A stretch of DNA of 64,000 nt from Oscillospiraceae bacterium (lineage in GTDB: Bacteria > Bacillota > Clostridia > Oscillospirales > Oscillospiraceae): the NCBI GenBank assembly GCA_015068135.1, contig SVLB01000001.1, positions 44,284 through 108,283 on the forward strand. The letters run 5' to 3'. Numbering within the stretch: position 1 is the stretch's first letter; each line of letters opens with the position of its first letter. The position numbers and the translations under genes are program-made. The notes beneath the pieces were generated by a model. The model had not been told where the DNA came from. It made no database searches and saw nothing but the letters and a program-made list of their open reading frames with translations. Below, piece after piece: positions 43,418-63,816 of the stretch.

Positions 43418-43446
43418 GAAGGGCCTGTGCAACCGCACAGGCCCTT
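43418..43446 (+). terminator. First copy of the duplicated terminator hairpin
   Basis: AAGGGCCTGTGC pairs with GCACAGGCCCTT. It has no T-tract because the 255-bp element begins right after it. A second, nearly identical hairpin with a T-tract lies at 43702-43737. Confidence 0.75.
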
Positions 43447-43701
43447 CAGCTTGTCAAAAAACGCTTTTTTGACAAGCTGGCAGAGGTCAAAGGAGCCGCA
43501 AAGACAAGCAAACCGGACTCGTCGGCGTACATAGGTACGGTAGAGTCCGGTTTGCGCAGTAAGTCAAAATGTCTTGCGCAGCAAGCCTTTCAGGGGCTTA
43601 AGAAGAACGGATTGCCACGGCCACAAGTGGCCTCGCAATGACGCTGCTTTCTTTTTCCATTCACACATATTTTGACGGTTTGCGGCTTCTTTGACACTCT
43701 G
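43447..43701 (+). mobile_element. 255-bp non-coding element, copy A
   Basis: Copy A matches the complement of 63523-63777 over all 255 bases with few differences. It begins with a hairpin (CAGCTTGTCAAAAAA and its complement, 43447-43480). Then come inverted ends: CAGAGGTCAAAGGAGCCGC at 43481 and, as the complement of 43701 backwards, CAGAGTGTCAAAGAAGCCGC. Inner hairpins include GCAAACCGGACTC/GAGTCCGGTTTGC. It encodes no convincing protein. It is flanked by two copies of the local terminator hairpin. Confidence 0.85.
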
Positions 43702-43737
43702 AAGGACCTGTGCAAACCGCACAGGTCCTTGTTTTTT
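43702..43737 (+). terminator. Second copy of the duplicated terminator hairpin, with T-tract
   Basis: AAGGACCTGTGC pairs with GCACAGGTCCTT and runs into GTTTTTT. Compared with the copy at 43418, one G-C pair has become A-T on both strands of the stem, so pairing is kept. Confidence 0.8.
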
Positions 43738-63487: not shown

Positions 63488-63522
63488 GATAAACACCGCT
63501 GACTTTCGTCAGCGGTGTTTGT
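63488..63522 (+). terminator. First copy of the duplicated terminator hairpin (zinc-ribbon gene)
   Basis: AAACACCGCTGA and TCAGCGGTGTTT form a perfect stem. The T-tract is missing, since the 255-bp element begins right after it. Confidence 0.8.
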
Positions 63523-63777
63523 CAGAGTGTCAAAAAAGCCGCAAACCGTCAAAATAGGTGTGAATGGAAAAAGAAAGCAGCGTCATTGCGAGGCCACTTG
63601 TGGCCGTGGCAATCCGTTCTTCTTAAGACCCTGAAAGGCTTGCTGCGCAAGACATTTTGACTTACTGCGCAAACCGGACTCTAACGTACCTATGTACGCC
63701 GACGAGTCCGGTTTGCTTGTCTTTGCGGCTCCTTTGACCCCTGCCAGCTTGTCAAAAAAGATTTTTTTGACAAGCTG
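63523..63777 (-). mobile_element. 255-bp non-coding element, copy B (inverted)
   Basis: The complement of this segment matches 43447-43701 end to end at the same length, with scattered single-base changes. It includes the CAAGCTTGTC-type end hairpin and the core palindrome GGCCACTTGTGGCC. It is again flanked by two copies of the local terminator hairpin. Confidence 0.85.
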
Positions 63778-63816
63778 ATAAACACCGCTGACTTTCGTCA
63801 GCGCTGTTTGTTTTTT
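63778..63816 (+). terminator. Second copy of the duplicated terminator hairpin, with T-tract
   Basis: AAACACCGCTGA and TCAGCGCTGTTT, one mismatch from the first copy, run into GTTTTTT. It stands four bases before the insertion-sequence end. Confidence 0.8.

Follow-up and report, generated by a model that had tools for sequence, protein, structure and literature searches.

A gene-less mobile element between duplicated terminator hairpins in an Oscillospiraceae genome, and its probable mobilisation by IS1182-family transposases

The element and its two hairpins

The window analysed here, a stretch of 64,000 nucleotides from an Oscillospiraceae bacterium, contains an element of exactly 255 bp that lies between two copies of one and the same terminator hairpin (copy A; Table 1). 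This raises the question what kind of mobile DNA the element represents, and how an insertion could leave an entire hairpin in duplicate. We consider it probable (roughly 0.86), judging from sequence comparisons, that the element is a non-autonomous DNA transposon, moved in trans by a DDE transposase of the IS1182 family that would choose its targets by structure and join the element at the 5' feet of the hairpin.

The element has precisely the boundaries assigned to it in a preliminary description of the locus. The latter had also noted the absence of a gene and a base pair that differs between the two hairpins on both arms (G-C versus A-T); both observations hold, and one loop base differs in addition to the compensated pair. 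Terminal inverted repeats are present (CAGCTTGTCAAAAAA versus CAGAGTGTCAAAGAA, both read inward). The element thus shows the features of a MITE, being short, gene-less and multicopy, with terminal inverted repeats and a target site duplication that in this case comprises the whole hairpin. The genome also encodes a paralogue (L029, 69% protein identity) whose gene ends in a single terminator of the AAGGGCCTGTGC..GCACAGGCCCTT type with no element, which is why the G-C form seen in the left hairpin of copy A is probably the ancestral state.

Table 1. Positions of the two element copies in the window, their parts and their flanking hairpins
Feature	Position	Strand	Remarks
Left duplicate of terminator stem-loop	43419..43446	.	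28 bp, G-C form, without T-tract; AAGGGCCTGTGC-AACC-GCACAGGCCCTT
MITE copy A	43447..43701	+	255 bp, no credible gene; full-length copies 96-99% identical
5' end palindrome	43447..43479	+	33 bp; hairpin of the CAGCTTGTCAAAAAA-CGC-TTTTTTGACAAGCTG type
Internal hairpin	43508..43555	+	conserved GTCGG/GTA internal loop, CGTAC/GTACG inner stem, strongly covarying outer stem
Internal palindrome	43608..43643	+	GGATTGCCACGGCC..GGCCTCGCAATGAC; part resembles other dispersed repeats of the genome
3' terminal inverted repeat	43684..43701	+	GGCTTCTTTGACACTCTG
Right duplicate of terminator stem-loop	43702..43730	.	29 bp, A-T form; AAGGACCTGTGC-AAACC-GCACAGGTCCTT
T-tract of original terminator	43731..43737	+	GTTTTTT
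Copy B, right duplicate of hairpin	63489..63522	.	34 bp
MITE copy B (L005)	63523..63777	-	97.3% identical to copy A
Copy B, left duplicate of hairpin	63778..63811	.	34-bp hairpin, one arm mutated

Copies, relatives and the form of the duplication

The genome to which the window belongs (a 2.4-Mb assembly of 79 contigs, 82.6% complete, with many contig ends falling inside the element) holds about 27 full or partial copies. When all flanks were read, the same hairpin was found on both sides in seven of the eight full-length copies, its sequence differing from locus to locus. This agrees with the earlier proposal that insertion into a terminator had duplicated the whole hairpin and left the T-tract on the far side. 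The duplicates comprise, for example, 35 bp at L003 (exact), 36 bp at L004, 34 bp at L005 and 23 bp at L007. Considering the copy number and the locus-specific match at seven of eight full-length copies, the duplication is beyond chance. The eighth copy (L002) has mismatched flanks, each of which matches a half-copy at a contig end (L017 and L027), so the locus is either chimerically joined or the product of recombination between copies; three more pairs of contig-end half-copies match each other (L022/L025, L011/L026 and L023/L010).

Copies elsewhere without duplicated hairpins, which the preliminary description had named as an observation speaking against its reading, are confined to six left-truncated ones (L009, L010, L012, L014, L015 and L028) that have lost the left end together with the left hairpin. 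Two of these, L014 (C18:7735-7956) and L015 (C53:41700-41920), start at the same internal base (element position 35, CAGAGG), have neither the 5' palindrome nor a left hairpin and each adjoin a terminator hairpin, present only once, at its 5' foot. The identical start suggests a second insertion mode or a precise deletion.

A few loci deviate in their architecture. L007 and L013 (C68:16118-16593) form one locus in which the 5' palindrome, a body, one base and a second body lie inside one duplicated hairpin. At L024 (C59:1-200) the adjoining hairpin is followed by ATGTAAATGGGTTCGAGTCCTGCTCTCCACCA, a sequence that resembles a tRNA gene in its 3' half; no tRNA is called at this place by ARAGORN. 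At L209 (C63:3816 onward) an end of the form CAGTTTGTCAAAAA follows a terminator hairpin and continues as a mosaic of different palindromic repeats; a partner end was not found.

The shape of the duplication was characterised on 71 insertions in many Clostridia, gathered by requiring matching flanks, so the unselected rate is that given above for the copies in the window's own genome. The duplications measure 19-44 bp (mean 29.7, SD 4.9). For 63 of the 71 insertions the best pairing offset is 0 or ±1, which places the dyad centre at the middle of the duplication; at least seven of the eight outermost pairs are Watson-Crick pairs in 57 of the 71, and as a rule the duplication begins and ends with the outermost paired bases of the stem. 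We relied on this direct counting of dyads, since the correlation of duplication length with the length of the folded hairpin (r = 0.29) was affected by folding having recruited outer A-T pairs. The targets resemble terminators, with 52% T in the eight bases after the duplication (background 21%) and 50% A before it (background 23%). Compensated changes between the two hairpins occur in three more pairs of equal length besides copy A, indicating that both copies remain palindromic after insertion. An empty site for the MITE itself was not found among the loci examined; the best stand-in for one is the terminator at L029, whose single hairpin is of the copy A type in sequence.

Related elements are present in the same genus, and a query with the 5' palindrome TGTCAAAAA-n-TTTTTGACANNCTG recovers them across many gut Clostridia, with hosts including Butyricicoccus faecihominis, Candidatus Faecousia, Oscillibacter and Candidatus Pullichristensenella. 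The members of this superfamily are 127-391 bp long; their bodies fall into unrelated groups and their ends are constant, consisting of the 5' palindrome CAGNNTGTCAAAAA-n-TTTTTGACANNCTG and the 3' end TTGACANNCTG. In an even sample of the order the palindrome was detected in only 6 of 295 genomes, a patchy distribution as is usual for mobile DNA. A search of a phage collection gave no match to the element.

IS1182-family elements as candidate autonomous partners

Neither the window's genome nor the stretches recovered with the palindrome contained a transposase-bearing copy with the 5' palindrome. Several candidates for an autonomous copy were rejected: L131 and L162 each consist of two facing MITEs around ordinary genes, the L208 pair likewise proved to be two MITEs, and the 1.67-kb L231 (B. 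faecihominis, G060 C12), which includes an rve transposase, is a MITE into which an IS3-like element, carrying that transposase and inverted repeats of its own, has inserted. The single-copy genomes (L224-L226) also hold MITEs.

A locus in G029 (L244) matches DDE_Tnp_1 as well as DDE_Tnp_1_6 and ends in the superfamily 3' end beside a terminator. The search for the DDE_Tnp_1_6 family led to L263 in G022, a genome of the same genus as that of the window. L263 is a complete element of 1,520 bp with a 495-codon transposase and the ends CAGTCTGTCAAAGA and TTTTTTGACAAGCTG, with the 25-bp palindrome AAGAGCGCCGCAACGCGGCGCTCTT repeated exactly on either side; its transposase scores 388.6 bits against the IS1182 model NF033551 (cut-off 270). 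The first 16 bp of the MITE, within the 5' palindrome of copy A, are identical to the transposase-proximal end of L263, and the opposite MITE end has kept the CAGNNTGTCAAAGAA form. Complete IS1182 elements with MITE-like ends in the same bacterial family are 1,496-1,571 bp long, and palindromic duplications were found at six complete copies (25 bp at L263, 35 bp at L273, 31 bp at L277, 30 bp at L279, 29 bp at L280 and 36 bp at L282); partial elements occur in G029, G060, G061 and G062. These six copies share with the MITE the ends CAGNNTGTC, the stem-loop target and the duplication of the whole stem-loop, but are about 1.5 kb long and encode a transposase, whereas the MITE is gene-less and carries a 33-bp palindrome at its left end.

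No IS1182 transposase gene was found in the window's own, 82.6% complete assembly, nor in the MITE-rich genomes G004, G008, G016 and G017, whose assemblies are fragmented and 68-84% complete. Within the genus, IS1182 matches in the incomplete assemblies available track the presence of the MITE only loosely.

On plasmids, seven of the 11 IS1182 copies examined (L304, L307, L309 and L311-L314) are flanked by palindrome duplications of 20-30 bp: 30 bp in Sutcliffiella, 22 and 20 bp in Enterococcus faecium, 20 bp in Aminobacter, 23 bp in Rhizobium, 20 bp for ISBspe1 of Alkalihalophilus and 20 bp in Vibrio. At the other four a palindromic duplication was not found. Together with these plasmid cases from Bacilli, Alpha- and Gammaproteobacteria, hairpin duplication by IS1182-family elements is seen in four bacterial classes. 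That such a duplication is atypical of insertion sequences, as originally remarked, is therefore true of most of them, but not of this family.

For one E. faecium insertion the empty site could be recovered. A query of joined flanks is contained for the most part in 85 plasmid records, each of the 40 matches listed is single and unbroken, and the one record without the insertion sequence that was read shows one hairpin. It thus provides direct evidence for duplication of the stem-loop on insertion of an IS1182 element. The corresponding search for the Sutcliffiella plasmid returned only its own record. Taken together, the shared ends, the hairpin duplications and the single hairpin at the Enterococcus empty site lead us to regard the 255-bp element as an IS1182-type MITE, and its mover is very probably a transposase of this known but under-described type.

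L211 (C70:3695-3754) in the window's genome is a 60-bp near-perfect palindrome, CAGTCTGTCAAAGACCCCCCCGTTTTCGCCTAACGAAAACGGGGGGTCTTTGACAGACTG, between two different terminators, and has the look of an IS1182 element reduced to its ends (compare L244 and L263).

Mechanism and alternative explanations

IS1272 of the staphylococci, which belongs to the IS1182 family, targets stem-loops and terminators and deletes the stem-loop without making a duplication (PMC5678879, PMC4923244). In the model put forward for it, the whole stem-loop would instead be duplicated if joining took place at its 5' feet (pathway b; PMC5678879), an outcome that the MITEs and IS1182 elements described here display. As with the MITE, the stem-loop or terminator targets of IS1272/TnSha1 have no sequence consensus (PMC5678879, PMC4923244). 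However, full-length MITE copies duplicate the stem-loop that IS1272 replaces. Some IS1272 copies (IS1272L) possess a tandem left-end repeat (PMC5678879), to which the tandem arrangement of L007/L013 may be compared.

According to our proposal, an IS1182-family transposase would act in trans, recognise ends of the form CAGNNTGTCAAAAA and select its target by structure, namely palindromes such as intrinsic terminators that may adopt an extruded cruciform or hairpin state. Strand transfer would most likely link the element by its two 3' ends to both target strands at the 5' feet of this structure, following pathway b (PMC5678879), and gap repair would then copy the whole stem-loop. Such repair would explain why the duplication, at 19-44 bp, matches the hairpin in length and why the terminator and its T-tract survive on the far side. 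Since the length follows the hairpin, a fixed stagger is hard to reconcile with the data, and it is most likely DNA structure that the enzyme reads. A duplication that follows the hairpin in length also opens the 5'-foot (pathway b) prediction made for IS1272 to direct testing. Six copies are left-truncated and without a left hairpin, and the start base shared by L014 and L015 is not predicted by our model. Copying terminators on insertion also suggests a route by which dozens of copies may be reached without destroying transcription termination, and duplicated terminators provide a simple signature for finding further elements of this kind in gut Clostridia.

Two other systems are comparable in part. 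YPAL/RU-2 of Yersinia is a small mobile repeat as well (about 168 bp), with variable duplications of 3-26 bp and targets that span or adjoin dyad symmetry, but it has internal inverted repeats and an open reading frame, and its duplication is not described as always being a whole hairpin (reviewed in PMC2229807). One subgroup of the IS1202 family makes target duplications of 16-28 bp (PMC10132070). We rejected membership in that family, which fits in its long duplications but has TGT...ACA ends and a TnsB-like transposase, with no hairpin target reported (PMC10132070).

The MITE could have been moved by some other transposase, either a domesticated Y1/RAYT-like enzyme or an unsampled DDE family, with an end sequence that is shared by convergence. 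Y1_Tnp proteins are encoded in seven of ten element-bearing genomes, including that of the window, in which no IS1182, rve or DDE_Tnp_1 match was found. On the other hand, no Y1 locus has element ends nearby, and the IS1182 elements match the MITE in both their ends and their duplication type. Target duplications are not expected from enzymes of the Y1 type. This explanation is improbable. REP/RAYT systems are similar in that palindromic extragenic repeats are thought to be moved in trans, and we know of no duplicated hairpin target among them; an assignment to such a system was rejected because the Y1 genes have no element ends beside them.

An RNA-based element had initially been considered alongside a MITE. 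Here a transcript would be reverse-transcribed at a nick beside the terminator hairpin, either in the manner of a SINE or with a group IIC-type reverse transcriptase acting in trans, and both a hairpin-length duplication and 5' truncations would result. Group IIC introns insert next to terminators, a preference that would suit such a route, as would the loss of the left (5') end in all six truncated copies of the window's genome and the strongly covarying internal hairpin. Yet RVT_1 was detected in only three of ten element-bearing genomes, so that a group II intron, a SINE-like or another RNA route was rejected for want of a consistently present reverse transcriptase. The truncated copies moreover lack the left hairpin, which is normally kept in target-primed insertion; selection to keep the copy with the T-tract would equally lead to loss of the left side, and in one copy from a relative (L036) it is the right side that is truncated. 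The two ends carry inverted repeats as in DNA transposons, common to IS1182 elements that make the same duplication. Of the two readings first offered, the MITE therefore stands and the RNA-based one has become very improbable. That the hairpins are no target duplications at all, two similar terminators having pre-existed or the second having arisen later by repair or selection, would accommodate the compensated both-arm changes in copy A and three equal-length pairs, each hairpin being kept palindromic, but is hardly credible, as hairpins match within a locus, loops included, and differ between loci, the Enterococcus empty site has one hairpin and the paralogous terminator at L029 is single.

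The internal hairpin of the MITE body shows both-sided changes at most pairs of its outer stem (in up to 9 of 19 sequences at one pair), its internal loop is conserved, and it recurs in elements of several bacterial families (alignment A1: L001, L037-L040, L042, L053, L055, L090, L108, L120, L123, L139, L146, L178, L189, L193 and L226). A covariance model of this hairpin matches both copies in the window; it had no convincing match in the IS1182 loci searched, and Rfam gave no match at gathering score. Selection on the structure at the single-strand level, as a functional RNA or as a single-stranded DNA signal for transposition or target choice, is a tentative and rather doubtful reading; correction of palindromes at replication would be another possible source of the covariation. 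The second internal palindrome resembles dispersed repeats in the window's genome (C46:43417, C58:35351 and C12:71914) and in the related genomes G025, G031 and G033.
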